Shown here: positions 32,347 through 63,821 of the stretch, piece after piece
Numbering within the stretch: position 1 is the stretch's first letter
Layout: each line of letters starts with the position of its first letter
The notes under the pieces: model-generated
What the model was told of the DNA's origin: nothing
The model's input: the letters and a program-made list of their open reading frames with translations, nothing else
Database searches by the model: none
Source: a virus
DNA: 64,000 bases
IMG/VR virus record: IMGVR_UViG_3300020419_000923
Span: 1-64,000 of that record
Reading direction: 5' to 3' (one strand)
Made by a program: the position numbers and the translations under genes

Positions 32347-32361
32347 AATCTTTTCTCCATG

Positions 32362-33054: not shown

Positions 33055-33065
33055 TACATTTTTTC

Positions 33066-36213: not shown

Positions 36214-36377
36214 CTGTCTTTAAGTTCCTTCAAGTTTTTAATCTTCCATTCATCTGTTGTACTTTGTAATCCCCATTTTTCAATCTCTTCACTTGTTCTA
36301 TTACAAGCTACACAAAAGCCACTATCTTCGTCAATACTACAAACACTTATACAAGGACTTTTAATTTCTTCTGGCAT
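36210..36377 (-). CDS. DUF1289-like cysteine protein, 55 aa
   Basis: SPCISVC, then GFCVAC about 8 residues later, followed by TSEEIEKW: the CxxxC...CxxC plus EIxxW pattern of DUF1289, presumed metal-binding proteins common in Proteobacteria. ATG 36377 lies five bases past the upstream stop; an in-frame ATG at 36425 would lengthen the N-terminus. Its presence inside a glycan operon is unexplained. Confidence 0.7.
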   Translation of the reverse strand: MPEEIKSPCISVCSIDEDSGFCVACNRTSEEIEKWGLQSTTDEWKIKNLKELKDR

Positions 36378-36382
36378 ACATT

Positions 36383-39122: not shown

Positions 39123-39368
39123 TTACCTATCCCAGTCTTCTGGGTCCTGTTCGTCATAATCTTCAGGATCTTCCATATCTAAATAATATGAAATTGCCGC
39201 ATCAAGATTATCACAGTTACCCATAGCATCTCTAAAAGCAGTATCGTCTGTTCCAAAGTCAGCACATACGTCTACATATCTTTCTGCTACTGTTTCAATA
39301 GCTTTCTTATCGATATTTTCTTTGAATGTATTCCAGATATCGACTATCATACTTGATTCCATTGTCAC
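39123..39368 (-). CDS. conserved acidic phage protein, 81 aa
   Basis: A helical N-terminal part (VDIWNTFKENIDKKAIETVAERYV) and a very acidic tail (MEDPEDYDEQDPEDWDR). It sits between uvsX and uvsY, overlapping uvsX by ATGA, and starts the uvsY ATG right after its stop. The acidic tail could mimic DNA or bind recombination proteins; inference. Confidence 0.6.
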   Translation of the reverse strand: MTMESSMIVDIWNTFKENIDKKAIETVAERYVDVCADFGTDDTAFRDAMGNCDNLDAAISYYLDMEDPEDYDEQDPEDWDR

Positions 39369-40429: not shown

Positions 40430-40448
40430 AATGCCTCCTTAAAATAGC

Positions 40449-40472
40449 CTAGTGGGGGTTTAACCCCACTAG
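40449..40472 (-). terminator. intercistronic hairpin between genes 32 and uvsX
   Basis: CTAGTGGGG (40449-40457) pairs with CCCCACTAG (40464-40472), a 9-bp stem. On the minus strand it is followed by GCTATTTT, a weak U-tract, so it probably attenuates rather than stops transcription or stabilises the gene 32 mRNA end. Confidence 0.65.
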
Positions 40473-40481
40473 TATATATTT

Positions 40482-41456
40482 TTAGTTTTGTTGCCTTGCT
40501 CTTATCATGGAAAGAATGTCTTCAGCCTTTCCACTTGGTTGAGCTGGTTCTTCAGCTTTAGGAGCTTCTACCTTTGGGGCTTCTGCTACCGGAGCCGTTT
40601 CCTGCTTTGGGGAAGTATCCGCCTTAGGAGCAGTATTGCCTCGAGTCATAGGATCACCTGTTCTCGCAGACATACCTGCTGGACGAAAGTATTGTCCAAA
40701 ACGATCCATATCGTATGGTTCACCATCGACACTCGCTTCAAACATTTCTTTCATTACCTTAACTTCAACTTCACCTGGCTTCTTAGGAAGGAAGTCTGGT
40801 AAGTTAAACAAACCATTTGTTTCAATGGCTTTCATTTCAGCATCCGATAATGGACGCTCACGTCTTGCCCAACTTGAAGTTGAGTAATCTGCGTATCCGC
40901 CTTTTGTAGTTTTATTCAGACGAAAGTCTACACCAGCAGTATAATCTGTTGGTAACTCTTCCATGTCAGGATCCATAAGAGCCTGTTTGATGATTTGGAA
41001 AATCTGTGGACCAATAATAAAACGTCTAATTGGATTTTCAGGAGTTGTATCGTCGCTTAATGCGTTCTCAGTTACAAATCCTTGGAAGATATATGATCTC
41101 TTCTTCCAATATTTTCGACCCATGTCTTCAAGACTTGCGTCTTTAAACCAGCCACGAACTTCGTTAAGAATTTCACAGCTATCACCATACATTTCCATAC
41201 AAGGAACTTGTACTTGTACAGGACGAGAATCAGTCTCACCCTTTACACCTGCGAAAGGCAGTTTGATCATCAAACGTTCTTTCCAGAAAAATGTGTTGGA
41301 TTCGTCACCATCAGGAAGGAAACGAAGCGTTGAGCTTTCGCTTTCTTTCATATTCCAGAATGGAAAAATTGCGTTGTCCCCGCCGGAGCTTTGTGAACCA
41401 CTTGTGCGTGATTCTTGTTCTTTCAGTTTAGCTCTGATTTCTGCTAATGTTGCCAT
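40482..41456 (-). CDS. 32: single-stranded DNA-binding protein, gp32
   Basis: 324 aa (T4 gp32 is 301). The basic N-terminus (LAEIRAKLKEQESR) is the cooperativity domain; the core OB fold includes FPFWNMKESESSTLRFLPDGD and RSYIFQGFVTE. The T4 zinc site is reduced to VPCMEMYGDSCE. The C-terminus is a Pro/Ala/Glu-rich acidic linker (KVEAPKAEEPAQ) ending in a conserved helix (AEDILSMIRARQ), the protein-interaction tail. Both an early-type and a T4-late-type promoter lie upstream. Confidence 0.93.
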   Translation of the reverse strand: MATLAEIRAKLKEQESRTSGSQSSGGDNAIFPFWNMKESESSTLRFLPDGDESNTFFWKERLMIKLPFAGVKGETDSRPVQVQVPCMEMYGDSCEILNEVRGWFKDASLEDMGRKYWKKRSYIFQGFVTENALSDDTTPENPIRRFIIGPQIFQIIKQALMDPDMEELPTDYTAGVDFRLNKTTKGGYADYSTSSWARRERPLSDAEMKAIETNGLFNLPDFLPKKPGEVEVKVMKEMFEASVDGEPYDMDRFGQYFRPAGMSARTGDPMTRGNTAPKADTSPKQETAPVAEAPKVEAPKAEEPAQPSGKAEDILSMIRARQQN

Positions 41457-41514
41457 AATAAGCCTCCTTTAAATTAGCCTTTGTATTGTGCCTAAAAGTG
41501 TAGCACATAAACAT

Positions 41515-41543
41515 ATACTACACGATATTATTTATAAAGTCAA
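41515..41543 (-). promoter_or_regulatory. overlapping early and late promoters for gene 32
   Basis: On the minus strand, TTGACT (41543-41538), a 17-nt spacer and TAGTAT (41520-41515). Inside the spacer lies an exact T4 late -10, TATAAATA (41536-41529). Gene 32 would therefore be available to both the host-type and late transcription machineries. Confidence 0.65.
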
Positions 41544-41573
41544 GTGTTTTTTTGCTTTATTTGTGGTTTTTGG

Positions 41574-43862
41574 TTATCTTAGTCCAGCAAGGTGTTGGAT
41601 TCTAGCCATTTCTTCATCTTGACCTGATAATAGTTCTTCAATCATTTGGCCTGCTTCCCTAACAGCTTTCTCTCCGTACTTCTTTTGTACCGCTGTCAAT
41701 ACTGCTGTCTCGCCTTTTGGAAAAGCATTTTGAGTATAATCATACATGCTTTTAACAAATTCGTCTAAAGGTGTTTCTTTAGGAGCCTTTAGTTCGTCTC
41801 CTTGCCCTTTTGGACTTATGTCTATAGTTGTAGAATCTTTATCATCACCTTCTTGTGGAACCGGCTCTTTATCTTTGCCAAATAGTTTCTGTGCTACTTT
41901 GTAACCACCTAGTGCCACAGCCGCTACCACCGCCGCTGGTAAAGCATATTGTTTACCAATCGCCGCTAATTGATCTAAATTAGGTACGTTTGGCATCATT
42001 CCTTTTAAGTCATCTGCTGTCTGGACCACTTTATCACCAACTTTATCAATAGCATCTTTAGCTTTATCCATTACTTCGCCAGCACCGTCAACTGCTCCTT
42101 TAATAGCTTTTCCAGTATCATATGCGCCTTTGACAGCACTTCTACCAGTGTCTGTACCTGCTACTCCTGTTGCTACTGTCGCTTTTACCGGATTACGTTT
42201 AGCCCAATTCATAATAGCTTTGGCACCTTTTGTACCTCCTTTAATTGCTAAAGGAGTAAGCACTCTTGCCGCTGTTGTTGCCGCTGGAATCAATAAAGGA
42301 AGAAACGCAAATTCGTCAAGCTGTGCTTCTTTTACATCGCTTTCACCAACATAGTCTTGGATAAGTGCGTCAACATCTCCGCCGGCAAATGTAAGCATTC
42401 TACTAAACCTTTTTTGATCCATGTTCATCATTACACGAAGAGCATCTTCACCTTTGGTTTTGTATATTTTCATCAACTGATCAGCTGTTGGCTTATCGCC
42501 TTCATTAGTTTGGCTATCAGCTAATAATTTTGCCGCTGTTGCTTTATTCATCTTTGTAGGATGTTTCTTACCTGATCCTGCTGGATATTCAAATTCTTTT
42601 TCACCCTTTGCCGCCGCATTCGCCGCCGCCATTTTAAAATCTTCAAATGCTTGTTCTTCTGCTGTCATGGGTGCTTCTTGATTGAACTTTGCTCCATTTA
42701 CAATAGCATCAGCTTGAGGTTCAAAACTATATTGATCTTCTCCAAAGTCGCTATCATCACGATAATCTTCATCATTTACTTTATCCCAAATATCAACATT
42801 GCGTTCGCCGTGTTTCAGCATAAATTCTCTACGGTCCATGTCCTGGGCATCATCTTCCATGTCCATCATGTATCCTTTTACTTTACCTTCATCGATTAAA
42901 TCTTCAGGTCCAAGGTCTTGTACTTTGTTTGCTTCACTTACTAATCTATAAATGTACGGAAAGACACCTTTGAGCTCTTCGTTAAACTGTCTAATAGTAA
43001 GTTCATCAATCCAGCTATTTGAAACATCTTCTGGAACTTCTTCAAGCACGGTATTGTCGAAGTTGTCGAATGCTTCTTTATATTTTGCTTTTGACTGTAA
43101 CGCATGTGTCGATTTCTTTACGGCCTCGATTCTTTCATTTACAACGTCCATATAACCAGCAAGTCCTTCAGCCATTACACTTGAGCGATTCATGTAAGTT
43201 TTGAATTTGCGTAGTTTTGAAAGTTCTTCGGATAGTCCAATGATGTGTTTACCAAAGTCATCATATGGTGTTCCGCCTTCAGCAACGTGCATTGACATTG
43301 CCCTTGCTCCGTTTAAGTGTTTCATAGGATACTTAAATCTTTCTCCTGATTCACTTTCAATGTAAATCCCAGCAATGTCTCTTGTTCTACCTGCTGGTTG
43401 TTCTCGATTGATCTGCTGTGAATGCTTCACAATCATTTTAGCTGAACCAATGTCTTGAAAACTGGTTCTGCTTGTTCCGTATAGTTTCGATTCGCTCATT
43501 TGTTTCTCCGTGCTTAGATATTCATAATCTCTTTTGTCTAAACTGTTTTTTGTAATATCTCTTGTATCAAAGTTTAACATTCTTTTTTTAGCAAATGTTC
43601 TAAGTTCTTTTAAAAAACTAAACCAATTGCTCTTTAAACTAGCATCATTAGAATCAAACAGTTTATTGCTAAACATTACAGCAATTCCATCTTCATCTAA
43701 ACTAATACTTACTTTTTTTCCTGGTTGGAAATCAAATTCAAAGAATCTGCCCTGGGCAGGCATATTAGTTATAGTTGCTTCATTATCACCAACTGTAACT
43801 GAAGGATATCTTCCTCTGATCTTGTTAAAAAGTTCGTCTGCTATGTATTCAAGGTTTTTCAT
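41574..43862 (-). CDS. large virion-associated protein, 762 aa
   Basis: Begins with KNLEYIADELFNKIRGRYPS and FDTRDITKNSLD, segments I recognise from large conserved proteins next to gene 17 in marine T4-like phages. Residues about 340-420 are acidic; about 525-690 hold Ala/Gly-rich hydrophobic stretches (PLLIPAATTAARVLTPLAI, YALPAAVVAAVALGGYKVA) that could be membrane-active; the tail ends with MARIQHLAGLR. A late promoter five bases upstream supports a virion role. An ejected internal or membrane-penetrating protein would fit, by inference. Confidence 0.6.
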   Translation of the reverse strand: MKNLEYIADELFNKIRGRYPSVTVGDNEATITNMPAQGRFFEFDFQPGKKVSISLDEDGIAVMFSNKLFDSNDASLKSNWFSFLKELRTFAKKRMLNFDTRDITKNSLDKRDYEYLSTEKQMSESKLYGTSRTSFQDIGSAKMIVKHSQQINREQPAGRTRDIAGIYIESESGERFKYPMKHLNGARAMSMHVAEGGTPYDDFGKHIIGLSEELSKLRKFKTYMNRSSVMAEGLAGYMDVVNERIEAVKKSTHALQSKAKYKEAFDNFDNTVLEEVPEDVSNSWIDELTIRQFNEELKGVFPYIYRLVSEANKVQDLGPEDLIDEGKVKGYMMDMEDDAQDMDRREFMLKHGERNVDIWDKVNDEDYRDDSDFGEDQYSFEPQADAIVNGAKFNQEAPMTAEEQAFEDFKMAAANAAAKGEKEFEYPAGSGKKHPTKMNKATAAKLLADSQTNEGDKPTADQLMKIYKTKGEDALRVMMNMDQKRFSRMLTFAGGDVDALIQDYVGESDVKEAQLDEFAFLPLLIPAATTAARVLTPLAIKGGTKGAKAIMNWAKRNPVKATVATGVAGTDTGRSAVKGAYDTGKAIKGAVDGAGEVMDKAKDAIDKVGDKVVQTADDLKGMMPNVPNLDQLAAIGKQYALPAAVVAAVALGGYKVAQKLFGKDKEPVPQEGDDKDSTTIDISPKGQGDELKAPKETPLDEFVKSMYDYTQNAFPKGETAVLTAVQKKYGEKAVREAGQMIEELLSGQDEEMARIQHLAGLR

Positions 43863-43867: not shown

Positions 43868-43875
43868 TATTTATC
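43868..43875 (-). promoter_or_regulatory. late promoter GATAAATA
   Basis: GATAAATA ends five bases (TTAAT) before the ATG at 43862, within the 3' end of gene 17. With T4-type spacing the transcript would start at the ATG itself. Confidence 0.7.
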
Positions 43876-45457
43876 CTAAACCGCCTGTAACGTAGATAGG
43901 CATAGGTGGTTCAAATACCTCTTCTCCGTCTGCTTGACTGAAGGAATTGTAAATCCTTGGATCCCAGTCCTTTAAAACAGCCATCATTCTTAGTGCTAAT
44001 AGTGTAGCACTTACTAAATCGTCTGTTTGTCCTACTTTAGCCCTAAAGCTAGTGCCAGTAGCAACATAATTTTTAAGTTCTGTTATTAAAGCCGCACTAT
44101 TCAGCTTAATTTTATCGTTTTCAATCATTGTTTTTAATCTACTACATGCGGTAATTTTTGTACCATGTGTAGTGTTAAATCCTTTTCTAAATTTTCTTAC
44201 GTGTCCTTTTCGCATAGGTTCACTTATAAACAAGCCTGGAATATTCTCTTCACCGTAATCATTTATTACAATTAGAGCCGCTTCTCCTATAGCGTTGTTC
44301 TCTACGCTCCAGTATATATTAGTACCTTGGTTCTTACACTTGTCTTTTAGATGCTGACATATATCCTTCAATATTCTAATTTGAGCAGGTATAGGTGTTT
44401 CATTATGTCGCCATTCCGCTACTTGTTTGTAGCTAGGAACTTCATAAACTTGAATAGCCGCGAAGTCTCCTCCTGTACCCATACTAGGATCAAGTGCTAC
44501 AACATAGTTTTCTGATCCGTTTATTTCTTCATACCACCTAGTTTGACCCATATTCATCTTAGGTTTCTTTGGTTCTAATGTAGAAAGTTTTATAGAGTTA
44601 ATTAAAGTTTCGTCATAAACTAAAAATTCACAACCATATTCTCTTCTAAATCTTTCCTCACCAATTCTACCTATTTCTGCTTCACGCCATTTATCATCTC
44701 TATCTGGGTGTTCGTTCCATTTAGCAGTAAATCCATGAAAGCCGTTTATACCAACTGTTTGCTCATTTCCATTAGCATCAAATTTATTTTGACTTTCTTT
44801 CCAAATTATAGCAAACGTGTCTTCATCAGAATTAGGTGTACTTGTAATAATAGCACGACCACCTGTTGCTAGTGTAGGTGAAATAGATGTCCAAAATTCA
44901 TCTGCGATACTAGGACTTACAAACGCAAACTCATCACAGTATAGTAAAGATATTGACATACCTCTTCCTGTGTTACCTGTTGTAGTAGCACTAACAATTC
45001 TACTGCCATTTTCAAATTCCATTGACCCTTTGTTGTAGTTTGTTACACCTGCCCTAATAAAATCAGGACATAATTCATAACCGTATCTTATACGTTGCAT
45101 TATTTCTTGGGCACCTGTATATTTGTGTGCGGCAATTAATATTGTTTGATCTGGATGAAACATAGCATACCATAACAAGTAACCTGCGGCAGTAGTTGTC
45201 TTTCCGCTTTGCCTTGGTAGCATGTTGATATTAAATCTATGATCGTGATAACTGTTTAGTAGCTTTTGTTGGTATTCATATGGTGAAAACAACATCTTTC
45301 CAGCAACAGGATGTTGTATGTTAAAAAACTTTTCACAAAAATAAAGATATCCTGTTTCAGGTTGCGTACAGGATTGTAAATCAGCGATTTGCTGTTCAGT
45401 AAATGTTTCACGTGTATTGGCTTTTTTTGTTAATACGCCATCTAAACTTTTAACCAT
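43871..45457 (-). CDS. 17: terminase large subunit, gp17
   Basis: DNA-packaging motor and nuclease. Walker A-like LPRQSGKTT (about residues 78-86), Walker B LLYCDEFAF (about 168-176), coupling TSTPNS motif, and the RNase H-like nuclease with ALDPSMGTGGD, SVENNAIGE and DDLVSATL aspartates. 528 aa versus 610 in T4; the C-terminus is shorter. A weak late promoter lies seven bases upstream. Confidence 0.95.
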   Translation of the reverse strand: MVKSLDGVLTKKANTRETFTEQQIADLQSCTQPETGYLYFCEKFFNIQHPVAGKMLFSPYEYQQKLLNSYHDHRFNINMLPRQSGKTTTAAGYLLWYAMFHPDQTILIAAHKYTGAQEIMQRIRYGYELCPDFIRAGVTNYNKGSMEFENGSRIVSATTTGNTGRGMSISLLYCDEFAFVSPSIADEFWTSISPTLATGGRAIITSTPNSDEDTFAIIWKESQNKFDANGNEQTVGINGFHGFTAKWNEHPDRDDKWREAEIGRIGEERFRREYGCEFLVYDETLINSIKLSTLEPKKPKMNMGQTRWYEEINGSENYVVALDPSMGTGGDFAAIQVYEVPSYKQVAEWRHNETPIPAQIRILKDICQHLKDKCKNQGTNIYWSVENNAIGEAALIVINDYGEENIPGLFISEPMRKGHVRKFRKGFNTTHGTKITACSRLKTMIENDKIKLNSAALITELKNYVATGTSFRAKVGQTDDLVSATLLALRMMAVLKDWDPRIYNSFSQADGEEVFEPPMPIYVTGGLG

Positions 45458-51205: not shown

Positions 51206-54200
51206 TTATAGTCCTGCTATTTCACCTGTATTTTTAAGTCTCAATGGAATGTATATAAACTCCACTGCTTTTACTGGCTCTATAGCTATATCTACATAAA
51301 GTTCATTTCTATCAATTCTAGATGGTGTGTTGTTTGATTCATCACACACAACTAGGAAGTCATATAATGCTCTTTGTGAAACAAGTTCTAACATTAAACT
51401 ATCAACTTGTGCCTTGATCTCATCACGTGTAATCTTATCATTAGGTTCAAAGATGTAAGGCTTAGCAAGTTTCTTAAGTTGTGATCTCAAGTAAATTACT
51501 AAACGTGCTACGTTGATTCTATCTAACGCACTAGCATTTCTTGCTCTAGTTTTTTGTCCGAAGTTAACTAATCCTGCTCCTGTTAAGAACGTAATTGGAT
51601 TGATGTTTAAAGAATACAATGTATCTCTTTGACCTTCGTTCAATGCTATTGATTTAAATTCTCCTTCAGCATCAACAAATCCTGCCGCACTAGCGTTTGT
51701 AATGCCACCGCGTCTTGTTCCTGCTGGAGCAAACCATGGAAACGATACTTGATCACTTAATGCAAAAGTTCTCATTATAGCATGACTTGGTGGAACAACA
51801 ACATTATTTCCGGCATTGTCACTTGTGAATAAGCTAGGATAAAATACTCCTAAGTATTCATCTCTTGAAACAAGTCCATCGTCGTTATCTTCAACAGCAA
51901 GAGCAGTATTATTACCCCAGTTGTTTAAAGTTGTTCCATCTGATTTTAATCTAAATGGTGAGTCACCAATAATAAATGCTGTTAAGCCTCTATCATTGTT
52001 AAGTGAAATCATTTCACCTATTAGTTCTGGATAACCTGGAGTAGCCATTACGTTGAATAGTCTTGATTCATCGTCTCTAATCTCTTGGTTACTATTAACT
52101 AGTGATTGTAATGCTTGTATTACAACTTTACGTTGTGCTTTACGACCAAAGCTACCTTTACCGTTTGGTTGGTTAGCTGACTCAGTTACCCATCTGTGTG
52201 GATAATAAGTAGCCATGCTCTCGTCATTTTTTCTAACGTTTTTAGCTGTTAAGTCTACATAGTTTCTAACGAATTTTTTAACATTGAATCCGCTTCTACG
52301 TAAGTTCCATAACAACATGCCTTTTGGATAAAGTGCTGGATCCGGAGCATCAAAGTCTAAAAAGTCACTTACTAATAATTCAGCAATAGTTCCTTTAGGT
52401 GCTTCTCCATTTGTTCCGTTTGTTCCACCAGTTGTTCCATATCTAGCATCAGCAAATAAAATACCATCTTCAGTAGTTTGATCACCTTCATCTACAGCAA
52501 GCCATTTTTGAAGATCTGCGTTGTATTTGTAAACTTCTGGATAGCTTTCTAAGTCTGCTGTACTAATCCAAAGATCACCTGTTACCAATGGTGTAGTATC
52601 TGATTGTTGTGTAGGTTCTGTAGCACTTACTATTGGACCTGCTGGATCTGCTGAAGAGTATACGTTTGCGTAACCTTTCCAAGTAGTTCCATCGTGTACC
52701 AACATGTCAACTTCGTCAACAATTGAACTGTACCATAATCTACCGTTTGTTGTTAATGATGTTGGAGCATTTGGTCCAGCATTGTAAGTTAAAATTTTCC
52801 AATTTGTAGCATGGAAATCATAAGCACTATCACCTGTTGGTGCTGTGTAAAGATTCGCTGTTCCTAATTTTGTGCTGTAGTTGTAAGCACTAAATCCTGC
52901 GTTTTGGAAAGCATTGTCTGTATCTTTAATACGCATTTCACCACCATCATTGTGTGAAATAACAAGTCTATTACTTGCGTCTACACTTGCTTGTATATTT
53001 GTAAAGCCATGTGCGTTAATTGCGTCAGCAAATAAGTCAGCATCTGATGTAGCACCAGTTGCCGTAAATGCTAAAGCTACGCCTGCGTCTAAAGCCGCTT
53101 GGTTTACTTTACTTTCACCTAATGTAAAATTAAAAGTTCCTGCCGCAAAAGTACTTGCCGTAATTGCGTTTGAAGTAATAGTAGTTGATCCTGAAGCATT
53201 TCTAGCAAAAATTGTAAAATCAAATTCTTCATTTTCTGCTATTGTTGTATGTGCTTGAATATATGTAGCACCTACCGCAAGATTAATTCCACCACCTGCT
53301 TTATCTAAATTAAATAAAGCCGCTTCGTTTGTTTTGTAAACTGGAGCAGACTGATCTACCCATAGTTTAGTAGTTGTGTTGTATACTTTAACTTTGTAAT
53401 TAGCACCCAAGTTAGCATCTGTAGTTTTAAACCAAACAGAACCTGAAGGTCTTGTTTTTGTATCTGCAGTCTTGAACGCTGGAACAGCCGTATGTGGAGC
53501 AATTTCTAACGCAGGAGCAAAGTAAGTTCCTGCTGTGATACCTAAGTCTGCTAACAATGTACCAGTTTGTCCAGCCGCGATAGAAATGGCGCCATCGTCG
53601 TCTGTTGAACCGTCAGTTGTTGAGCTTCCGTCACTGTAGATATAAAGTTTTCCGTCTACGCTCTTAGCACTTACACCTGTAATTGCCGCATTAGTAATCG
53701 CTGTTACCATGTTAGCAACAGATGTCCCTGAAATTGATACAGTTGATCCGTTAATTATAATTGATTGACCAGTTGACAAAGTTGGATTAGCAGTTGATCC
53801 TTGTATTGTTGGCCAACTTTTTACCCAATCTGATGATCCAACTTTTACCCAAGCACCGTCTGTGTTCTTGTAGTAAACTTTGTTAATTGTAGTTGTTGTA
53901 ACAACAGCATAACCGCCTACTTGCCCTACTGAACCTTTTGGTATACCTGTAATAGATTCACCTACTAAATTTGTTTTAGATGTGATTACTGTTGGAACTT
54001 TATTTGTAAATGCTTGTCCGCCTGTTACAGTTACAGCATTTCCGTTCCATTCAAAAATTCCGTATTTTGTTAAAGCAGTATCAAACCAAAATGTTCCGTT
54101 TGCTGGTGCCGCCGCTGGCGCACTTGAACTTGGTGAAATTTCATTTAGGTCTATGTCGGCTCTTGTTACAAAAGCTCTGTTCGCAACACCTAAGAAAGAA

Positions 54201-54496
54201 TAAGCCGCTTGTAAACCATACTCGTTTAATTCGCCGCCGTTAATTGGATTGTTGTTGTTATCTGTTTCAAAGACTGGATCTCCGAACTTATCAGATAAGT
54301 CTCTTTGTGATGTAATAAGTTGTGGTACTCCAGCATTTGCTTTTGTAGTTCCACTAGCTGTTCCTGTCCCTGCCGCGTTTGTTTTATCTTGTCTAGATGC
54401 AACAAAAACCATAGGAGTCATTCCCGGTTCAGCTGGGGTGTAAAAACTTTCGTCTATAACACTAACATTTACACCTGGTGATATTAATGATGCCAT
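51206..54496 (-). CDS. 18: tail sheath protein gp18, greatly enlarged
   Basis: 1096 aa versus 659 in T4. Residues 1-130 (SPGVNVSVIDESFYTPAEPGM, NEYGLQAAYSFLGVANRAFVTRA) and about 700-1096 (FDAPDPALYPKGMLLWNLRRSGF, VNFGQKTRARNASALDRINVARL, PSRIDRNELYVDIAIEPVKAVEFIYIPL) form the conserved sheath core with the C-terminal handshake region. Residues 130-690 are a large Thr/Ala/Gly-rich insertion containing four W-type repeats, presumably outward-facing domains on the contractile sheath. Contracts to drive the tube through the envelope. A late-type promoter lies 31 bases upstream. Confidence 0.92.
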   Translation of the reverse strand: MASLISPGVNVSVIDESFYTPAEPGMTPMVFVASRQDKTNAAGTGTASGTTKANAGVPQLITSQRDLSDKFGDPVFETDNNNNPINGGELNEYGLQAAYSFLGVANRAFVTRADIDLNEISPSSSAPAAAPANGTFWFDTALTKYGIFEWNGNAVTVTGGQAFTNKVPTVITSKTNLVGESITGIPKGSVGQVGGYAVVTTTTINKVYYKNTDGAWVKVGSSDWVKSWPTIQGSTANPTLSTGQSIIINGSTVSISGTSVANMVTAITNAAITGVSAKSVDGKLYIYSDGSSTTDGSTDDDGAISIAAGQTGTLLADLGITAGTYFAPALEIAPHTAVPAFKTADTKTRPSGSVWFKTTDANLGANYKVKVYNTTTKLWVDQSAPVYKTNEAALFNLDKAGGGINLAVGATYIQAHTTIAENEEFDFTIFARNASGSTTITSNAITASTFAAGTFNFTLGESKVNQAALDAGVALAFTATGATSDADLFADAINAHGFTNIQASVDASNRLVISHNDGGEMRIKDTDNAFQNAGFSAYNYSTKLGTANLYTAPTGDSAYDFHATNWKILTYNAGPNAPTSLTTNGRLWYSSIVDEVDMLVHDGTTWKGYANVYSSADPAGPIVSATEPTQQSDTTPLVTGDLWISTADLESYPEVYKYNADLQKWLAVDEGDQTTEDGILFADARYGTTGGTNGTNGEAPKGTIAELLVSDFLDFDAPDPALYPKGMLLWNLRRSGFNVKKFVRNYVDLTAKNVRKNDESMATYYPHRWVTESANQPNGKGSFGRKAQRKVVIQALQSLVNSNQEIRDDESRLFNVMATPGYPELIGEMISLNNDRGLTAFIIGDSPFRLKSDGTTLNNWGNNTALAVEDNDDGLVSRDEYLGVFYPSLFTSDNAGNNVVVPPSHAIMRTFALSDQVSFPWFAPAGTRRGGITNASAAGFVDAEGEFKSIALNEGQRDTLYSLNINPITFLTGAGLVNFGQKTRARNASALDRINVARLVIYLRSQLKKLAKPYIFEPNDKITRDEIKAQVDSLMLELVSQRALYDFLVVCDESNNTPSRIDRNELYVDIAIEPVKAVEFIYIPLRLKNTGEIAGL
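52499..54100 (-). repeat. four degenerate W-type repeats inside the gp18 insertion
   Basis: Within the sheath insertion the pattern G-x-(L/V/F)-W-(F/Y/I)-x-T, about 8-16 residues, then a strand ending in x-W, occurs four times: residues 133-151 (GTFWFDT...IFEWNG), 350-380 (GSVWFKTTD...KLWVDQ), 583-607 (GRLWYSS...TTWKGY) and 639-666 (GDLWIST...QKWL). Similar single units occur near the C-termini of gp14 and gp15 here. Confidence 0.6.
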
Positions 54497-55554: not shown

Positions 55555-56316
55555 TTAACCAATAGTAAAGGCGTAACCAGCGCCGCCACCAACCTGTGTG
55601 GCTACTTCTGCTTCTAGCTTTTCAATTTCTGACTGTGCTTCTGTTTTTAAAGCATCACCATTCATTGAAGATCCGCCCTGTGGTCCAGCTATCGTAGCAA
55701 ACTTTGAACGAGCTTCACCAAGCATGTACTTACATTTTGCGAGTGTATAATCTTTAATCCACTGTTGGGCTAGGTAATCATCTAATAACTCAAAGTCTGG
55801 TCTATAGTTGTAAGCATAAAGAAGTATTTCTTCATCTGATCGAGGACGTTGTAAAATAGATAATTTCTTTGTAACAGTATTCCATTTGAATTCAATAAAG
55901 GAACCAAACATTCTACCAACCAATTCTTGGTATCCTGCAAAAGCATTATAAGTTGCTAACCCGCCCATATTAGAACTAGCTAAAAGATATGTGTTTGTAT
56001 ACGCAAGGTTGAATGGTTCAAATAGTGTACCTCCGTCGCCACCACCTGATCTAGAACCAATACTTCTTCTAAATACCTGGCGTACTTCCATAACTTCTTG
56101 AGGTAGTGTATAATCATTTTGATCTATTACTAATGGTAAAAACATATAGGATTCTTCTACCGAATTATCTGAGCGTTGTCTGAACTTAGAAAGCGCCGCA
56201 TTAAGAGCTGTTTCGTAATGATCTGGATCTAACTCAACATCAATCATGCCTCCACCTAAATTTAGCTCAACATACTTGAATACTTCTTGTTTTTTCGTTT
56301 TTAAATTAGTTGCCAT
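55555..56316 (-). CDS. 13: neck protein gp13
   Basis: 253 aa. LGGGMIDVELDPDHYETALNAALSKFRQRSDNSVEESYMFL (quoted by ELDPDHYETALNAAL and RQRSDNSVEESY), YTLPQEVMEVRQVFRRSIGS, FNLAYTNTYLLASS and YNYRPDFELLDDYLAQQWIKDYTLA identify it. gp13 binds the portal and gp14 to close the packaged head. Transcribed away from gene 14, unlike T4. Late promoter CATAAATA and AAGGAAAG upstream. Confidence 0.88.
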   Translation of the reverse strand: MATNLKTKKQEVFKYVELNLGGGMIDVELDPDHYETALNAALSKFRQRSDNSVEESYMFLPLVIDQNDYTLPQEVMEVRQVFRRSIGSRSGGGDGGTLFEPFNLAYTNTYLLASSNMGGLATYNAFAGYQELVGRMFGSFIEFKWNTVTKKLSILQRPRSDEEILLYAYNYRPDFELLDDYLAQQWIKDYTLAKCKYMLGEARSKFATIAGPQGGSSMNGDALKTEAQSEIEKLEAEVATQVGGGAGYAFTIG

Positions 56317-56334
56317 ATTCTTTCCTTGCTACAG

Positions 56335-56342
56335 TATTTATG
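56335..56342 (-). promoter_or_regulatory. late promoter CATAAATA, gene 13
   Basis: CATAAATA reading leftward, 18 bases before the gene 13 ATG at 56316. It is back-to-back with the plus-strand late promoter for gene 14, four bases away. Confidence 0.65.
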
Positions 56343-56346
56343 CTCT

Positions 56347-56354
56347 GATAAATA
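56347..56354 (+). promoter_or_regulatory. late promoter GATAAATA, gene 14
   Basis: GATAAATA ends eight bases before the gene 14 ATG (56363), with no ribosome binding site between. Confidence 0.65.
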
Positions 56355-56362
56355 GTTATGTT

Positions 56363-57523
56363 ATGCCGAGACTCAGTTTATATAAACCCGAAAAAGGGAA
56401 AGATTATCAGTTTTTAGATAGGAACATTGAAGAGATGTTTACTATAGGTGGTACAGACGTATTTGTACACAAATACCTTGGTCCTAAAAATCCAGCCACA
56501 GGAGAAGCTACAGCAGGTACACCTGAATACAATGCTGTAAAAGAAACTAACATTCAAGACATGATATTTCTTGAAAATAGAGATAGAAAATATGATCCTA
56601 ATGTTTACAGTATAAGAGGTATTTACAATGTAGCAGATATAGACTTTGATCTATCGCAATTTGGACTTTTCTTATCCCAAGATATTGTGTTTATGACAGT
56701 ACCTATAAATTATACAGTAAAAGCTCTAGGTAGAAAAATTATGTCAGGCGATGTAATAGAATTACCGCATCTAAAGGATCCACATGCTTTAAATGATTTT
56801 GATTTAGCACTTAAAAGATTTTATGTTGTTGAAGATGTAAGTAGAGCAAGTGAAGGATTTACACAGACTTGGTACCCTCATTTATATAGAATTAAACTTA
56901 AACAGATAGTTGATTCACAGGAGTATAAAGATATACTTGATGCTAAAGCAGAAGAAGGAAGTGATAAGACACTTAGAGATTTACTTTCAACATATAACAA
57001 AGAAAAAGAAATCAATGATGCTGTAGTCAACCAAGCAGAAGCAGATGCTGGAAAAGCTGGATACGAAACAAATCACTTATACACCTTACAAGTTGATGAT
57101 AGAGGTGTAACAGAACTAGTTACAACAGATACAAGCACACTTGATGCTAGTACACAAAATGAACTTGCTGATAGAATTCATCAAACTCCAGAAAGAGAAG
57201 GATATGAAGGTTATCTAATAGGAGATGGTATAGCTCCTAATGGTGAAGCATTTGGTAGTGGTATAGGTTTTCCAACAGGTAGTGTAAAAGGAGATTACTT
57301 CCTTAGAACAGACTTATTTCCTAACAGACTGTTTAGATATGATGGACAAAGGTGGGTAAAAATGGAAGATAATATTAGAGTTAATTTAAGTAACACTGAT
57401 AGTAAACAAACACAAAGAAGTTCGTTTATTAATAACACAGCAACTTCAAGTATAGGTGGCGAAACAGTTAAAGAAAGACAGAGCTTATCAGACGCACTGA
57501 AAGCTAAACCGGATAACGAATAA
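56363..57523 (+). CDS. 14: neck protein gp14
   Basis: 386 aa versus 256 in T4. MPRLSLYKPEKGKDYQFLDRNIEEMFTIGGTDVFVHKYLGP (recognised by LSLYKPEKG and GGTDVFVHKYLG) and FSTPVNYT-like strands (FMTVPINYTVKAL), MSGDVIELPHLKD and FYVVEDVSRASEGFTQTWYPHLYRIK place it with gp14. The C-terminal extension holds one W-type unit (GDYFLRTD...RYDGQRWVK) like those in gp18. Starts at ATG 56363, since upstream codons precede the late promoter. Its stop overlaps the gene 15 ATG (TAATG). Confidence 0.88.
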   Translation: MPRLSLYKPEKGKDYQFLDRNIEEMFTIGGTDVFVHKYLGPKNPATGEATAGTPEYNAVKETNIQDMIFLENRDRKYDPNVYSIRGIYNVADIDFDLSQFGLFLSQDIVFMTVPINYTVKALGRKIMSGDVIELPHLKDPHALNDFDLALKRFYVVEDVSRASEGFTQTWYPHLYRIKLKQIVDSQEYKDILDAKAEEGSDKTLRDLLSTYNKEKEINDAVVNQAEADAGKAGYETNHLYTLQVDDRGVTELVTTDTSTLDASTQNELADRIHQTPEREGYEGYLIGDGIAPNGEAFGSGIGFPTGSVKGDYFLRTDLFPNRLFRYDGQRWVKMEDNIRVNLSNTDSKQTQRSSFINNTATSSIGGETVKERQSLSDALKAKPDNE

Positions 57524-59025
57524 TGCAACATTTTTATGACGGACAAATAAGAAGATATATCACCCAATTAATTAGGCTTTTTAGTAACTTCAAATACAAA
57601 GACGGTGAAGGCAAAGAAGTACAAGTTCCTGTAATGTATGGTGATATGACTAGACAAGTCTCTAATATTATAAGAGATAACAGTGAAAACAAAATACCTT
57701 CTGCGCCAAGAATGGCAGTCTATATAACTGCGTTAGAGCAGGACAGAACAAGGACAGCAGATTCTAGTTATACAAGTAAAGTACATATTAGAGAAAGAGC
57801 GTATGACAATAATAATAAAGAATATTTAAACACACAAGGAAAAAATTATACTGTAGAAAGAATAATGCCTTCTCCGTATACATTAGCAGTGAATGTAGAT
57901 ATTTGGTCAACTAATACAGAAATGAAATTACAAATTATGGAACAACTTTTAATGTTGTTTAATCCAAGTTTAGAAATACAAACTACGGACAATTATGTTG
58001 ATTGGTCAAGTTTGACTGTAGTCGAATTAACAAATTTAAACTTTTCAAGCAGAAGTATACCACAAGGTACTGAATCAGAAATAGACATTGCCAGTCTATC
58101 ATTTTCTACTCCGATTTATATTAATCTCCCGGCAAAAGTTAAAAAATTAGGAGTCATCACAAATGTTATTATGAGTATTTTTGATGAAACAAAAGGAACA
58201 ATTAATCTAGGCGCATCTATGCCTGAACTATCTGCTTATTCTGACACAGAAGCAAGTCAAGCTAAGACTGATCTACAAACAGGTAGAACAACCAAAGATG
58301 GTATTACAGTTACAGGTGGAAATTATAAAGATTATGATATTTTAGTTATGGGTACTACAGCACAAATTGTTGATAGAGGCAGAGTAGGAAGTATCGCTTG
58401 GGATCAAGTTATAGATCCACATCCTGGAGAATACAGAGCAGGATTATCGCAGATACAGATAAAAAGAAAATTACTTTCAGGAGAAAATACTACTATTAGT
58501 ATAAACGGTGGTATTACAATAAATGAACTAGATAGAACTAAATTACAGATAGTATGGGATGAAGATACAATTCCTACCAATTCTAGTTTAAACAGTCCTA
58601 GTGGCAGAAACAATACAGGTAGTGTTGATTTTATTATAGATCCACAAAAGTACAATCCAAACTCAACAACAAAAGTTGCTGGTTTAAGACTTTTACTACT
58701 GGGTAAAATAAATGATAGTGCGAATGTAGGTGGATTAATGACATTTGGACAGGATCCTAGCGACGGCAGTAGTCAAGACCCATATGACGGTCCAGATGCT
58801 TGGAAAAATACAGACGGAAGTGACTTTGTAGCAGGTCAAAATGACGTAGTTGAATGGGACGGATCTAAATGGCATATTGTTTTTGATTCTAGCTCAGATG
58901 ACGGAGCAACAACCAAATACTTAACTAACCTGAATACAGGCGTCCAATATAGGTGGACTGGTACAGAATGGATACTCAGCTGGGAAGGCGAGTATCAAAA
59001 AGGTACTTGGCGCCTAGCACTTTAA
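57523..59025 (+). CDS. 15: tail sheath stabiliser/terminator gp15
   Basis: 500 aa versus 272 in T4. MQHFYDGQIRRYITQLIRLFSNF, VPVMYGDMTRQVSNII, NYTVERIMPSPYTLAVNVDIWSTNTEMKLQIMEQLLMLFNPSLEI (quoted by MPSPYTLAVNVDIW and EQLLMLFNP) and SFSTPIYINLPAKVKKLGVI match gp15. The extra C-terminal part includes paired W-type units (VVEWDGSKWHIVF, YRWTGTEWILSW). Caps the sheath and joins tail to neck. TAATG-coupled to gene 14. Confidence 0.9.
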   Translation: MQHFYDGQIRRYITQLIRLFSNFKYKDGEGKEVQVPVMYGDMTRQVSNIIRDNSENKIPSAPRMAVYITALEQDRTRTADSSYTSKVHIRERAYDNNNKEYLNTQGKNYTVERIMPSPYTLAVNVDIWSTNTEMKLQIMEQLLMLFNPSLEIQTTDNYVDWSSLTVVELTNLNFSSRSIPQGTESEIDIASLSFSTPIYINLPAKVKKLGVITNVIMSIFDETKGTINLGASMPELSAYSDTEASQAKTDLQTGRTTKDGITVTGGNYKDYDILVMGTTAQIVDRGRVGSIAWDQVIDPHPGEYRAGLSQIQIKRKLLSGENTTISINGGITINELDRTKLQIVWDEDTIPTNSSLNSPSGRNNTGSVDFIIDPQKYNPNSTTKVAGLRLLLLGKINDSANVGGLMTFGQDPSDGSSQDPYDGPDAWKNTDGSDFVAGQNDVVEWDGSKWHIVFDSSSDDGATTKYLTNLNTGVQYRWTGTEWILSWEGEYQKGTWRLAL

Positions 59026-59038: not shown

Positions 59039-59488
59039 ATGAACAGTGAAATCACGTGTAGTGGAGCCTTATTCTATGCTTTAAAAACAAAGAGGTTTTT
59101 ACTATTACACAGAACACAAAGCAAACAAAAGAATGTTTGGGGATTAGTAGGCGGAACCAATGGAAAAAATGAGTATCCTTGGCCTGCTCTACAACGGGAA
59201 ATTACTGAAGAAATAGGAGCATTACCGAACATTTTAAAAACAATTCCATTAGAAACCTTTGTAAGTAGTGATCATAAATTTAGTTTTCATACATATCTTT
59301 GTGTTACTGCTGAAGAATTTTTACCTGATTTAAACGAAGAACACGACGGATATAGTTGGGTAAGTTTTGGTAAATGGCCTAAGCCGTTACACATGGGACT
59401 AAGAAATACACTACAAAATAAAACCAATCAAACAAAACTAAAAACAGTTTTTGACTTAATAGGATATTTAGAGAATGAAAAAAATTAA
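59039..59488 (+). CDS. Nudix hydrolase
   Basis: 149 aa. A perfect Nudix box Gx5Ex7REUxEExGU is present: G-TNGKN-E-YPWPALQ-REITEEIGA (about residues 38-60). Hydrolyses nucleoside diphosphates linked to another moiety; substrates could be oxidised dNTPs, NADH or nucleotide sugars. Located between the tail genes and the halogenases, overlapping the first halogenase gene by 14 nt, so it is co-translated with that module. Confidence 0.88.
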   Translation: MNSEITCSGALFYALKTKRFLLLHRTQSKQKNVWGLVGGTNGKNEYPWPALQREITEEIGALPNILKTIPLETFVSSDHKFSFHTYLCVTAEEFLPDLNEEHDGYSWVSFGKWPKPLHMGLRNTLQNKTNQTKLKTVFDLIGYLENEKN

Positions 59489-60977
59489 AAACATTACTAT
59501 TGTAGGCGGCGGATCAGCGGCTTGGTTAGCGGCAACCTACATACAAAACAATTTTTGGGACCTACCAGTAACAGTCATAGATAAGGAAGTAGGTAATCCT
59601 ATTGGAGTAGGCGAAGCGACTGTTTTAACTTTTCCTTCATTCCTACGACAATGTGGAATTAATTTGCCTCAATGGTTTCAAAATGTTGATGCTACATACA
59701 AGGCCGGTATTGATTTTCCAAACTGGGTAGAGCCAGGTAGAAAAATTTATCACCCATTCTTCTTAAATAGATCATATTTTGATTTGAAATGTACACAATA
59801 TGATATCTGGGCACAAAAACAAGATTTAGATTTTAGAGAATATAGTGTTCCTAGTTATCAAAATACTATGATGAACAAGGTCGACATATTCAATGCTTTT
59901 GAAACGTTAGCATATCATATAGATGCTGGCAAACTTGTAACTGAGTTACAAAACATTTGTGCTAACACAGTAAACATCATCAAGAGCGATGTAGTCAAAG
60001 TAAATAAAGACCTAGATGGCTATATAACCAGCCTTGATCTAAAGAATGGTACAACACACCAGTCAGACTTTTACCTGGACTGTACGGGCTTCTTATCGCT
60101 GTTAAAAGACCAGAAAAAGGTGGAGTTACTGGATACAGGCAGGTTGTTTACCAACGCCGCAGTAGCAGGACATGTGCCATATGAAGACTTTGAAAAAGAG
60201 TGTGTGCCATACGTAAGTTGCCCTGCTGTGGACCATGGATGGATTTGGAAAATACCAACACAATCAAGAATTGGTTCTGGTATGGTATTCAACAGTAACA
60301 TCACTGATCCAGAAGAAGCTAAAAAATATTTTTGTGAACATTGGAACAATAGAATAAAGCCGGAAGATTTAAAATTAATAGATTGGACACCGTACTATAG
60401 TGAAAACTTTTGGGAAAAGAATGTTGTATCAATTGGGTTAAGTGGAGGATTTATTGAACCACTAGAGTCAACAGGATTAGCCAGTATGACATATGGTGTA
60501 CAAGAACTTGCTTTACATATTCCGCAGTACGCATATACAGAAAATTCAATAGACATGTATAACAAAACAATGATGTCATGGTATGGTGATGCTGTTGATT
60601 TCGTTGGTAGCCATTATGCTGATAGTAAATGGGACACAAAGTTTTGGAATTATGTTAAAGAAAAACATGTAAAATCTGAAAGACATTTATTTTATGAAGA
60701 TTGGTTAAAAGATCCGCAAAGAACTTTTTATTCTGATGTGTCAAGTAAAACACTCTTTCATCCACAGAATTGGCAATTATGGTTAATACAAATGGGCTAT
60801 CCAGCAAACGTTGACCTAAACAGGTTAAGTCCAATGCAGATAGATTTTGCTATGCAAGAATTTATGGGATCAGAAGAAATAAGAAATAAATTAAGCATCT
60901 CACATAAAGATGCTATAGAAACAACCAATATGGGTTATGATTGGTATGTAAGATGTCATAGTACAGGAGACTTTTAG
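59475..60977 (+). CDS. FAD-dependent halogenase (tryptophan halogenase family), copy 1
   Basis: 500 aa. FAD-binding GGGSAAWLAA (11-20), IGVGEATV (43-50), catalytic lysine K76 in DATYKAGIDF (equivalent to PrnA K79), halogenase signature WxWxIP as WIWKIP (256-261), and FIEPLESTG with E331/S332 (PrnA E346/S347). These enzymes use FADH2, O2 and halide to form HOX, then a lysine haloamine, and halogenate aromatic substrates. A cyanophage halogenase (VirX1 of Syn10) that iodinates many substrates is known. No flavin reductase is visible, so one from the host is needed. Confidence 0.9.
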   Translation: MKKIKNITIVGGGSAAWLAATYIQNNFWDLPVTVIDKEVGNPIGVGEATVLTFPSFLRQCGINLPQWFQNVDATYKAGIDFPNWVEPGRKIYHPFFLNRSYFDLKCTQYDIWAQKQDLDFREYSVPSYQNTMMNKVDIFNAFETLAYHIDAGKLVTELQNICANTVNIIKSDVVKVNKDLDGYITSLDLKNGTTHQSDFYLDCTGFLSLLKDQKKVELLDTGRLFTNAAVAGHVPYEDFEKECVPYVSCPAVDHGWIWKIPTQSRIGSGMVFNSNITDPEEAKKYFCEHWNNRIKPEDLKLIDWTPYYSENFWEKNVVSIGLSGGFIEPLESTGLASMTYGVQELALHIPQYAYTENSIDMYNKTMMSWYGDAVDFVGSHYADSKWDTKFWNYVKEKHVKSERHLFYEDWLKDPQRTFYSDVSSKTLFHPQNWQLWLIQMGYPANVDLNRLSPMQIDFAMQEFMGSEEIRNKLSISHKDAIETTNMGYDWYVRCHSTGDF

Positions 60978-61093
60978 TGGGAACATTTACTTTAGCAAGT
61001 GGTCTTGGACTTTTATTCTGCGGTATAGTAGCTATGGCTGTAATAGGGTTTACAGGCCTTTGGATAGTTAACAAATTTAAGGACGAAGACTAA
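60977..61093 (+). CDS. 38-residue membrane peptide between halogenases
   Basis: The GTG start overlaps the first halogenase stop (TAGTG), and the TAA overlaps the second halogenase ATG (TAATG). One hydrophobic helix (LGLLFCGIVAMAVIGFTGLWIV) with a charged tail (NKFKDED). The precise joins at both ends support translation. It might tether the halogenases to the membrane; inference only. Confidence 0.6.
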   Translation: MGTFTLASGLGLLFCGIVAMAVIGFTGLWIVNKFKDED

Positions 61094-62574
61094 TGAAAAT
61101 AGTTATAGTAGGAGGCGGAACTGCTGGATGGTTGGCCGCTTTAATGTGTTCAAAAATTAGATCAGAACATTCTGTTACTGTAATAGAAAGTAGCAAAATA
61201 GGTATTATTGGAGCAGGAGAAGGTAGCACAGGCTCTTTAACTAATATCGTACAAAATGAAATGCATAACTTAGGTTGTGTAGAAGAAGAATTTATTAAAG
61301 AATGCGATGCCACAATAAAATTAGGGATTAAACATATAGGTTGGAATCCTGATACAGTAAGCCATTATTATGGCCCTATAGATGGTTCTCCTACAAGCTA
61401 TGATTCTACTGACTTAGTTTTCCAAAATGCGTTAGGATATAGAGAACAAAAACTTTTACATTTATCTACAGAGTTGGGCTACAAAATTCATCATAATAAA
61501 AATAGCTTTGTAGAAAATAATGGTAATCATGCTTATCACTTTGACGCACACAAAGTAGGAAAATATTTTAAAAGACTGTGTGACACCGTAAAGCATATTG
61601 ATTCTGAAGTAGATGAAGTAATTTTACATCCTGAAACAGGATATATTAAAGAACTAAGATTAAGTAACGGTAAAACCGAAGCAGGTGATATGTTTATAGA
61701 TGCTAGTGGCTTTGGACAAGTGCTTATGAAAGCATTAGGATCCAAATGGAAAAGCTACAAAGATAATTTACCAGTGAATAGTGCGTTACCTTTCCTGTTA
61801 CCTTATGATGATAATGAAATAATTGAACCAGTGACAAATGCCTGGGCACAAAAAAACGGTTGGTGCTGGCAAATACCTACATTAAATAGAAGAGGATGTG
61901 GTTATGTGTTTTGTGATGACTTTGTTACACCTGAACAAGCACAAGATGAATTAGAAAAAACTATAGGGAAAAAAGTAGATCCTATTAGGCTTTTAAAGTT
62001 TGAAAGTGGTAGACAAGAAACTTTATGGATCAAAAATTGTTTATCAATAGGACTGTGTGCGGCCTTTGCTGAGCCGCTAGAAGCAACAAGTATACATACA
62101 ACAATATTTCAATTAAAACATTTTGTATACGGTTGTATAGGCAGAGATATGGAGCAGACATGTAATGAAGGACAAGTAAATCATTACAACAATGTCAACG
62201 GACACTTGTACGATATCTTAAAAGATTTCTTAGTAGCTCATTATACCTGTGGCAGAAACGATACAGATTTTTGGAAGTATATTGACAGCGGAAAAACTAC
62301 GACACCTTTTGTTAGAGACATGCATGAAGTAAGTAAACACCGAGTGCCTAATCAGTCTATGTTTCCTAGACAAGAAGGATCAGCAGGTTGGCCTTTGTGG
62401 AGTTACATATTAGCAGGTACTGGTAAGCTGACTGACGAAACTTGTAGAAAAGATTTAATGTACAATAATTCTACGTTGCTATCTGATAAAGCGTATGTAC
62501 AACATATAGAAGAATTTGATTTGAAGACAAAAGATTTGCCAGATAACACAAAGTATATAAAGGATCATCAGTGA
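61093..62574 (+). CDS. FAD-dependent halogenase (tryptophan halogenase family), copy 2
   Basis: 493 aa. GGGTAGWLAA (7-16), GAGEGSTGSL (40-49), catalytic K76 in DATIKLGIKH, WCWQIP (257-262) and AEPLEATS (E330, with Ala in place of the usual Ser). It is clearly diverged from copy 1: a typical GEGSTG FAD loop versus GEATV there, and a longer His/Asn-rich C-terminal half. The second GEG-type loop is closest to classical tryptophan halogenases. GTGA-type overlap with hldE follows. Confidence 0.9.
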   Translation: MKIVIVGGGTAGWLAALMCSKIRSEHSVTVIESSKIGIIGAGEGSTGSLTNIVQNEMHNLGCVEEEFIKECDATIKLGIKHIGWNPDTVSHYYGPIDGSPTSYDSTDLVFQNALGYREQKLLHLSTELGYKIHHNKNSFVENNGNHAYHFDAHKVGKYFKRLCDTVKHIDSEVDEVILHPETGYIKELRLSNGKTEAGDMFIDASGFGQVLMKALGSKWKSYKDNLPVNSALPFLLPYDDNEIIEPVTNAWAQKNGWCWQIPTLNRRGCGYVFCDDFVTPEQAQDELEKTIGKKVDPIRLLKFESGRQETLWIKNCLSIGLCAAFAEPLEATSIHTTIFQLKHFVYGCIGRDMEQTCNEGQVNHYNNVNGHLYDILKDFLVAHYTCGRNDTDFWKYIDSGKTTTPFVRDMHEVSKHRVPNQSMFPRQEGSAGWPLWSYILAGTGKLTDETCRKDLMYNNSTLLSDKAYVQHIEEFDLKTKDLPDNTKYIKDHQ

Positions 62575-63821
62575 TATTAGTTTACGGTGATATCATGCTA
62601 GACCGATGGATAGTTGGTAATGCTGACAGAATAAGTCCCGAAGCTCCAGTGCCAGTACTACTAGAAGAATCACAACATTTTAGTATAGGAGGAGCAGGCA
62701 ATTTGGCTCTTAATATTCAATCTATCAATGGACAGGTTAAGCTATTTGGTAGTGTTGGACAAGATAAAGAAGGCTATAAATTAATAGAAATGATAGGCGA
62801 TACAGATTTACAATCTCGATTAGCTAAAGATCATTTAGTTACTACAACCAAAACTAGACTTGTCGGTCAAAACGGACAACACATAGTACGTTGGGATAAT
62901 GAACAAAAATACAATGGAACAAACGCATATGAAGAACTATTAGCAGAAGCTACAGTACATACATTAATCTGTATAAGTGATTACAACAAAGGAATTGTAC
63001 AGAAAAATACAGTATCTGAACTTGTCTCAAAAGGTTGTAAAGTGATAGTAGATCCTAAACAAGATCCACATACATATACTGGTGCGTTTTTAGTAAAACC
63101 CAATATGAAAGAATATGTTGCTTGGTTTGGAGAATTTACAATTGAATCTGCTTTAAAAAATATGCGAGAATATAAATGGAATTGGTTAGTAGTTACAGAT
63201 GGTGCTAACGGAATACACGTAATTAATACAGAAGGTGAATACAAACATTTTGTTGAACCTGTAAAAGAAGTTGCTGATGTTACAGGAGCAGGAGATACAG
63301 TTTTATCAGTAATTGCTTATGGAATTGAACACGGATTAAACATATTTGAATCTTGTAAACTTGCTTGTTTTGCCGCGGCTAGGATAGTAGAAAAACGCGG
63401 AGTAGCAGTGATTACACCAAAAGATTTGAGTACCGGAATAGTTTTTACAAACGGTGTTTTTGATATATTACATGTAGGACATTTAAAATTATTACGATAT
63501 GCCAAAACTTTAGGAAGTAAATTAGTAGTTGGCATAAACAGTGATGTAAGTGTAAAAAGAATTAAGGGTGATACTCGACCAATAAACAACGAATTTGTTA
63601 GAAAACAAGCACTAGAAGAACTTGGATTCATTGATGAAGTTGTTATTTTTAATGAAGATACACCTTTAGAAACTATGGAGAAAGTACAGCCTGATATAAT
63701 TGTCAAAGGTGGTGATTATATTCCAGAAACTGTTGTTGGAAATCATTTAGCTGAGGTTATAATATTCCCTACAATAGAAGGACATAGTACAACAAATATA
63801 ATAGGAAAAATGAAACAATGA
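62571..63821 (+). CDS. hldE: bifunctional heptose-7-phosphate kinase/heptose-1-phosphate adenylyltransferase
   Basis: 416 aa (E. coli HldE 477). Residues 1-285 are a PfkB-type sugar kinase (GDIMLDRWIVGNADRISPEAPVPVL at the start, IGGAGNLA, and the catalytic DVTGAGDTV at 236-244). Residues 290-416 are the adenylyltransferase (FTNGVFDILHVGHLKLL with HxGH, then KGGDYIPE). Makes ADP-D-glycero-beta-D-manno-heptose for LPS core. GTG start overlapping the halogenase stop (GTGA). An epimerase gene follows with ATGA coupling. Confidence 0.92.
   Translation: MILVYGDIMLDRWIVGNADRISPEAPVPVLLEESQHFSIGGAGNLALNIQSINGQVKLFGSVGQDKEGYKLIEMIGDTDLQSRLAKDHLVTTTKTRLVGQNGQHIVRWDNEQKYNGTNAYEELLAEATVHTLICISDYNKGIVQKNTVSELVSKGCKVIVDPKQDPHTYTGAFLVKPNMKEYVAWFGEFTIESALKNMREYKWNWLVVTDGANGIHVINTEGEYKHFVEPVKEVADVTGAGDTVLSVIAYGIEHGLNIFESCKLACFAAARIVEKRGVAVITPKDLSTGIVFTNGVFDILHVGHLKLLRYAKTLGSKLVVGINSDVSVKRIKGDTRPINNEFVRKQALEELGFIDEVVIFNEDTPLETMEKVQPDIIVKGGDYIPETVVGNHLAEVIIFPTIEGHSTTNIIGKMKQ

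Follow-up and report, generated by a model that had tools for sequence, protein, structure and literature searches.

What do two adjacent genes of the flavin-dependent halogenase (FDH) family do for a large marine phage? We asked this of the genes here called HalA and HalB, which lie in a 64,000-nucleotide stretch of viral DNA (positions 1 to 64,000 of IMG/VR record IMGVR_UViG_3300020419_000923; the window), on the plus strand like their operon neighbours given below. HalA (59475..60977; 500 amino acids) and HalB (61093..62574; 493 amino acids) match PF04820 nearly end to end (HalA, E 1.6e-87, 294.7 bits; HalB, E 3.6e-89, 300.2 bits; curated cut-off 21 bits) and also match phrog_2928, 'tryptophan halogenase'. 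Judged by sequence, this homology is far beyond chance, and the two proteins are 27% identical to each other. Our results thus support the first-pass annotation of this DNA, which had described two divergent, translationally coupled FDH-family enzymes in a marine virus. We tentatively propose, with slightly less than even confidence, that HalA and HalB act as tailoring enzymes in a module for heptose-based decoration, whose target may be the phage's own fibre proteins.

The residues on which FDH catalysis depends are present in both proteins. The equivalents of the catalytic lysine and glutamate of PrnA (K79 and E346) are K76 and E331 in HalA and K76 and E330 in HalB, and both residues are invariant in the 8 aligned HalA-family and the 25 aligned HalB-family sequences. 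The WxWxIP motif reads WIWKIP in HalA (256-261) and WCWQIP in HalB (257-262). Of the motifs that had been assigned to both proteins at first pass, Lys76, WxWxIP and the active-site Glu therefore stand, whereas GxGxxG holds for HalB only (GGGTAG); the HalA loop is GGGSAA, or GxGxxA, likewise in the aligned HalA orthologues. The contrasts drawn between HalA and HalB in the flavin adenine dinucleotide (FAD) loop (GEATV versus GEGST) and in the residue following the Glu (Ser versus Ala) were correct. HalA and HalB have the fold and core motifs of PrnA, PyrH, Thal and RebH in common, and the AlphaFold2 model of HalB aligns with tryptophan halogenases at template-modelling scores (query) of 0.82-0.87. 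Unlike those enzymes, neither carries the Trp4 substrate-binding motif that marks tryptophan halogenases (PMC8269204): a loose pattern search found neither its group A nor its group B form in HalA or HalB, so that 'tryptophan halogenase' is here a family name only. The His101/Phe103 pair of the PrnA pocket is kept in HalA (His93, Phe95) and not in HalB, where Gly94 takes the position of His101.

Paired viral halogenases are not new in themselves. The first-pass annotation took VirX1 as the one known marine viral halogenase and knew of no coupled pair with a membrane peptide, but a coupled viral pair was already on record: VirX1 (PDB 6qgm) matches CPUG_00131 of phage Syn10 over all 530 residues, and this gene is the second of a pair, overlapping the upstream halogenase gene CPUG_00132. 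Overlapping halogenase pairs are also annotated in syn9, S-RIM44, P-TIM40 and P-RSM6. One genome with prnA genes of 1593 and 1524 bp was reported earlier (Sullivan et al., 2010; PMC3037559); the two syn9 genes have these same lengths. Tryptophan halogenase genes have been found in 20 of 153 cyanophages (PMC10452541). In a maximum-likelihood tree of 41 halogenase sequences, the phage proteins form four separate clades: HalA groups with S-SSM7_125 (support 100/100), HalB with S-RIM44_209 (100/98), a further type that we call HalC with P-SSM2_217 and AG-345-O18, and VirX1 with the tandem pairs of syn9, Syn10, P-TIM40, P-RSM6 and S-RIM44 (100/99). HalA and HalB thus do not group with VirX1, which rules them out as orthologues of the Syn9/Syn10 pair and implies that their pairing arose independently. 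The two pairs are alike in consisting of overlapping tandem PF04820 genes with a Lys and Glu active site, near tail genes of a marine myovirus; they differ in that VirX1 and its partner fall in their own clade, and share about 27-32% identity with HalA and HalB, which for their part are set in an operon with NUDIX, HldE and HldD genes. In HalA-HalB an arrangement of a familiar kind thus occurs in new surroundings, made of two FDH clades in which we found no characterised or solved member.

We then compared 119 loci obtained from two IMG/VR scans and mapped by tblastn, a few of which are overlapping stretches of one contig. In 104 of these, HalB comes next after HalA, so the pair is indeed a unit in related genomes. 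The ratio of nonsynonymous to synonymous substitution rates (dN/dS) against orthologues was 0.02-0.11 for HalA and 0.04-0.10 for HalB; synonymous divergence is saturated, which makes the exact values rough, yet they point to strong purifying selection on both genes. As a side observation, a tandem of three genes, HalA-HalA'-HalB, occurs in L034, L039, L040, L048 and L055 (some cut by contig ends), with HalA' 42-48% identical to HalA, and L120 carries two tandem HalB-type genes (41% and 48% identical to HalB) together with a distant HalA-type gene. A genome-contig scan for bacterial relatives of HalA confirmed none, though it was weak, using two short patterns only.

The pair sits in a co-oriented operon with small gaps and overlaps. 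The operon begins with a virion structural protein (56246..57523; phrog_11591, head and packaging, E 5e-87) and a tail sheath stabilizer-like protein (57523..59025; phrog_11196, E 4e-77; phrog_227, tail sheath stabilizer, E 7e-21), followed after 13 bp by a NUDIX hydrolase (59039..59488; PF00293, E 3e-13), whose 3' end overlaps HalA. HalB in turn overlaps by 4 bp the start of a gene for an HldE-like bifunctional heptose-7-phosphate kinase and heptose-1-phosphate adenylyltransferase (62571..63821; PF00294 and PF01467). Next come an HldD-like ADP-heptose 6-epimerase (TIGR02197), which starts at 63818, passes the window end at 64000 and continues to contig position 64666, and, from the listing of open reading frames, a cupin (contig positions 64644-65054). 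Where there was enough DNA to test, the NUDIX gene lies 5' of the pair in all 97 loci, an HldE-like gene lies directly 3' of HalB in all 70, and HldD and the cupin are each present in all 56. In many of the loci L033-L118 the HldE gene 3' of HalB has been swapped in place for a divergent HldE-like protein (27-43% identity), as though the role had been preserved while the gene itself was exchanged.

A second set of related genes faces this operon. Most relatives carry three halogenases; the third, HalC, is encoded on the other strand some 14 kb away from the pair (L137, L185, L183), in a region that the window contig does not reach. On the near-identical contig that includes L137 (G004 24000-43000), the facing operon encodes a Phage_tail_APC protein, a 356-residue glycosyltransferase (GT), a carbamoyltransferase, two 2-oxoglutarate (2OG)-Fe(II) oxygenases, a DUF6445 protein, HalC, an SGNH-like protein, a GmhB-like phosphatase and fibre genes. 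HalC, which neighbours the 2OG oxygenases and the phosphatase, has the variants WMFRIP and EPLEASS. The GT has no Pfam match; its AlphaFold2 model (mean per-residue confidence, pLDDT, 79.5) matches GT9 heptosyltransferases (Foldseek E 7e-9), aligning with 3tov at a VIA Z of 22.1 (279 residues, root-mean-square deviation 3.9) and with WaaF, WaaC and TibC at Z 17.6-19 (TibC 17.8), against at most 11.8 for other GT-B proteins. The enzyme is thus predicted to adopt the GT9 fold, which it has in common with WaaC/WaaF and TibC at a sequence identity of only about 10%. TibC is reported to be a protein heptosyltransferase that acts on autotransporter adhesins (PMC4358343). Across 80 GT loci, we found the carbamoyltransferase in 79, the Phage_tail_APC gene in 74 and some halogenase in 60.

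The same set of genes recurs in cyanophages. S-SSM7 encodes counterparts of the GT (60.6% identity), the carbamoyltransferase (64.9%), HalA (41%), HldE (42 and 30%, as two genes), HldD (42%) and the cupin (38%). Next to this module, S-SSM7 encodes a fibre protein, a Phage_tail_APC protein (32%) and three Cys/Gly-rich proteins with 34-40% identity to their counterparts in the relatives. The cluster of S-SSM7 and S-SSM6a, whose S-SSM6a version was described by Iyer et al. (PMC7824862), thus has in common with the window lineage the Cys/Gly-rich fibre proteins, Phage_tail_APC, DUF6445, the GT9-like protein, the carbamoyltransferase, a HalA orthologue, HldE, the cupin and HldD. It differs in that its HalA has no adjoining HalB partner and its HldE is split, whereas the window lineage has HalA, HalB and HalC, NUDIX and GmhB, divided between two facing operons. 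The Cys/Gly-rich family was found in 8 of 50,697 phage records, all 8 among the 55 GT-positive records, and the Phage_tail_APC family in 4 of the 50,697, all from the same phages. The members of the Cys/Gly-rich family, which are also rich in aromatic residues, are tandem proteins of about 265-280 amino acids (L139:96-2633, L140:482-3022, S-SSM7_114 to 116). No paper joining halogenase, heptose and phage was found in the literature library searched. This heptose-carbamoyl-halogenase-fibre module is a more interesting result than the pair itself.

Halogenases entered cyanophage annotations about two decades ago and have had no role assigned since, and the sugar genes of large cyanophages were once suspected to be 'stuffer DNA'. 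The tight conservation of the operon and the signs of strong purifying selection, seen here in another lineage of large phages, together with the module in common with S-SSM7, argue for a real function and narrow the target to the tail-fibre region. In the mechanism that we propose, a host reductase would supply FADH2, from which each enzyme would form FAD-OOH with O2. Halide attack on FAD-OOH would give hypohalous acid, which would pass through the tunnel to Lys76, and an electron-rich aromatic group would then be halogenated with assistance from the active-site Glu; the case for this chemistry is firmer for HalA than for HalB. The acceptor would most likely be an aromatic group on the module product and not free tryptophan. 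In our reading, that product would be a heptose, carbamoylated and hydroxylated, with which the phage decorates its own Cys/Gly-rich tail-fibre proteins. Among the products imagined at first pass (halogenated signals, antibiotics, or modified virion or envelope aromatics), modified virion aromatics fit the surroundings best as a putative substrate. In its most specific form, in which up to three flavin halogenases modify aromatic residues of the fibre proteins and phage HldE, HldD, GmhB and GT9 enzymes add a carbamoylated heptose, the proposal is rather unlikely. If true, however, it would make a virion protein the target of halogenation by viral enzymes and provide a function for the phage halogenases.

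The most serious alternative, somewhat unlikely in our view, is that the halogenases and heptose genes serve to exclude rival phages or bacteria during infection, either by altering polysaccharide on the host surface or through a secondary metabolite that is both halogenated and carbamoylated. HldE, HldD and GT9 enzymes are well established as enzymes of the bacterial lipopolysaccharide core, and the same proposal has been published for the carbamoyltransferase-halogenase-2OG-cupin cluster of jumbo cyanophages, S-SSM6a among them (PMC7824862). However, the pair closely follows the sheath stabilizer gene, which suggests late expression, when remodelling of the host surface would be of little use; moreover, a rare family of fibre proteins accompanies the module, and the cluster itself contains fibre genes. 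Because of this structural-operon position and the fibre-family co-occurrence, we prefer decoration of the fibre to a change of the host surface or a diffusible metabolite.

Several observations weigh against fibre decoration by this module. The HldE, HldD and GmhB scores all fall under their curated equivalog cut-offs: the HldE-like protein matches NCBIfam HldE at E 1e-102 and 344 bits (cut-off 521), and the HldD-like protein matches TIGR02197 at E 9e-66 and 222 bits (cut-off 274.6). We found no GmhA-type gene (SIS_2, PF13580) in the relatives, and no flavin reductase of family PF01613 in the window contig or ten relatives, although these records may be fragments and other reductase families were not searched; host enzymes must therefore be assumed for both steps. 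Several of the records with the fibre families come from the same or sister phages, so that this co-occurrence rests on about four independent lineages, and in large phages the tail-fibre region is a hot spot for insertions, where neighbourhood may mislead. In Sf-FS3, which has the module, the stretch read includes no annotated halogenase, so that halogenation is optional to the module. Lastly, the tunnel motif FxxPxxSxG, reported in all active FDHs as such or with a charged residue in place of the G (PMC8407142), is found in HalA (FIEPLESTG, 326-334) and missing from HalB (FAEPLEATS, 325-333) and HalC. HalB may therefore not halogenate, and we class it as a member of PF04820 rather than as a proven halogenase.

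This last point raises a second, rather unlikely possibility, that HalA alone halogenates and that HalB, perhaps with HalC, works as a flavin monooxygenase or another kind of flavin oxidase. The change from EPLESTG to EPLEATS, with loss of the motif Ser and Gly, extends to the relatives of HalB; the histidine of the PrnA pocket is replaced as described above, and HalC has in addition lost WxWxIP. On the other hand, the invariance of Lys76 and Glu330 in all 25 aligned HalB-family sequences speaks for a retained halogenase chemistry, as do F-x-[DE]-P-x-[EFL] and the WxWxIP motif of HalB, which is thought to block monooxygenation. It is also conceivable, if improbable, that HalA and HalB halogenate free indoles or phenols, such as a signal or an antibiotic, as two steps of one pathway to which the sugar genes are unrelated. 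Variant A FDHs do use free small molecules, and VirX1 takes many aromatics, but we saw no polyketide synthase, nonribosomal peptide synthetase or aromatic-precursor genes near the pair, and the sugar genes are its fixed neighbours.

HalA and HalB are separated in the window by an open reading frame for a 38-residue peptide with a single membrane span (60977..61093; GTG start; hydropathy maximum 2.34 over 19 residues). The coordinates and reading frames of all three genes are exactly those given at first pass, as are the joints TAGTG (HalA/peptide) and TAATG (peptide/HalB). The peptide has no match in PHROG, Pfam or our phage collection. It may well be translated, given its constancy against L005 described below. 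A Shine-Dalgarno-like AGGAG (60965..60969, by sequence and junction comparison) lies inside the HalA 3' end; this site stands 5' of HalB in relatives and 5' of the peptide in the window, and an AAGGA near the peptide end now lies 5' of HalB. The three-gene unit envisaged at first pass did not hold up in the virome search, however. Within the 119 loci, the peptide is restricted to the window contig and to L003, L004 and L005, three contigs that share 98-100% identity with the window in HalA, and a degenerate DNA scan of IMG/VR for its C-terminus returned the same three contigs only. In other loci HalA adjoins or overlaps HalB with no peptide between, its stop at or near the HalB start codon (TAATG and similar). 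Relative to L012 (...AGGAGACTTT-TA-ATG...), a single additional cistron, GTG...GACTA, is inserted in the window between TA and ATG. Because all other loci lack it, the peptide is not part of the conserved unit; it represents one cistron gained by insertion in this lineage and has no working role in the HalA-HalB pair. A membrane-anchored complex of HalA, peptide and HalB, as the earlier annotation implied, is thus very improbable and as a general feature refuted, even though the insertion is exactly one cistron with both overlapping joints kept and the peptide gene shows 0 of 117 differences from L005 where HalA differs at 53 of 1500 sites, an identity that may reflect recent acquisition or exchange.

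As to the phage itself, an assignment of the window to a cyanophage is not supported. Its terminase and tail sheath place the contig in a PA5oct-related lineage of large phages: the terminase (43871-45457) shares 54% identity with that of PA5oct-type Pseudomonas phages, and the tail sheath (51206-54496) shares 38-41% with those of Atu_ph07, Paride and Phosso.

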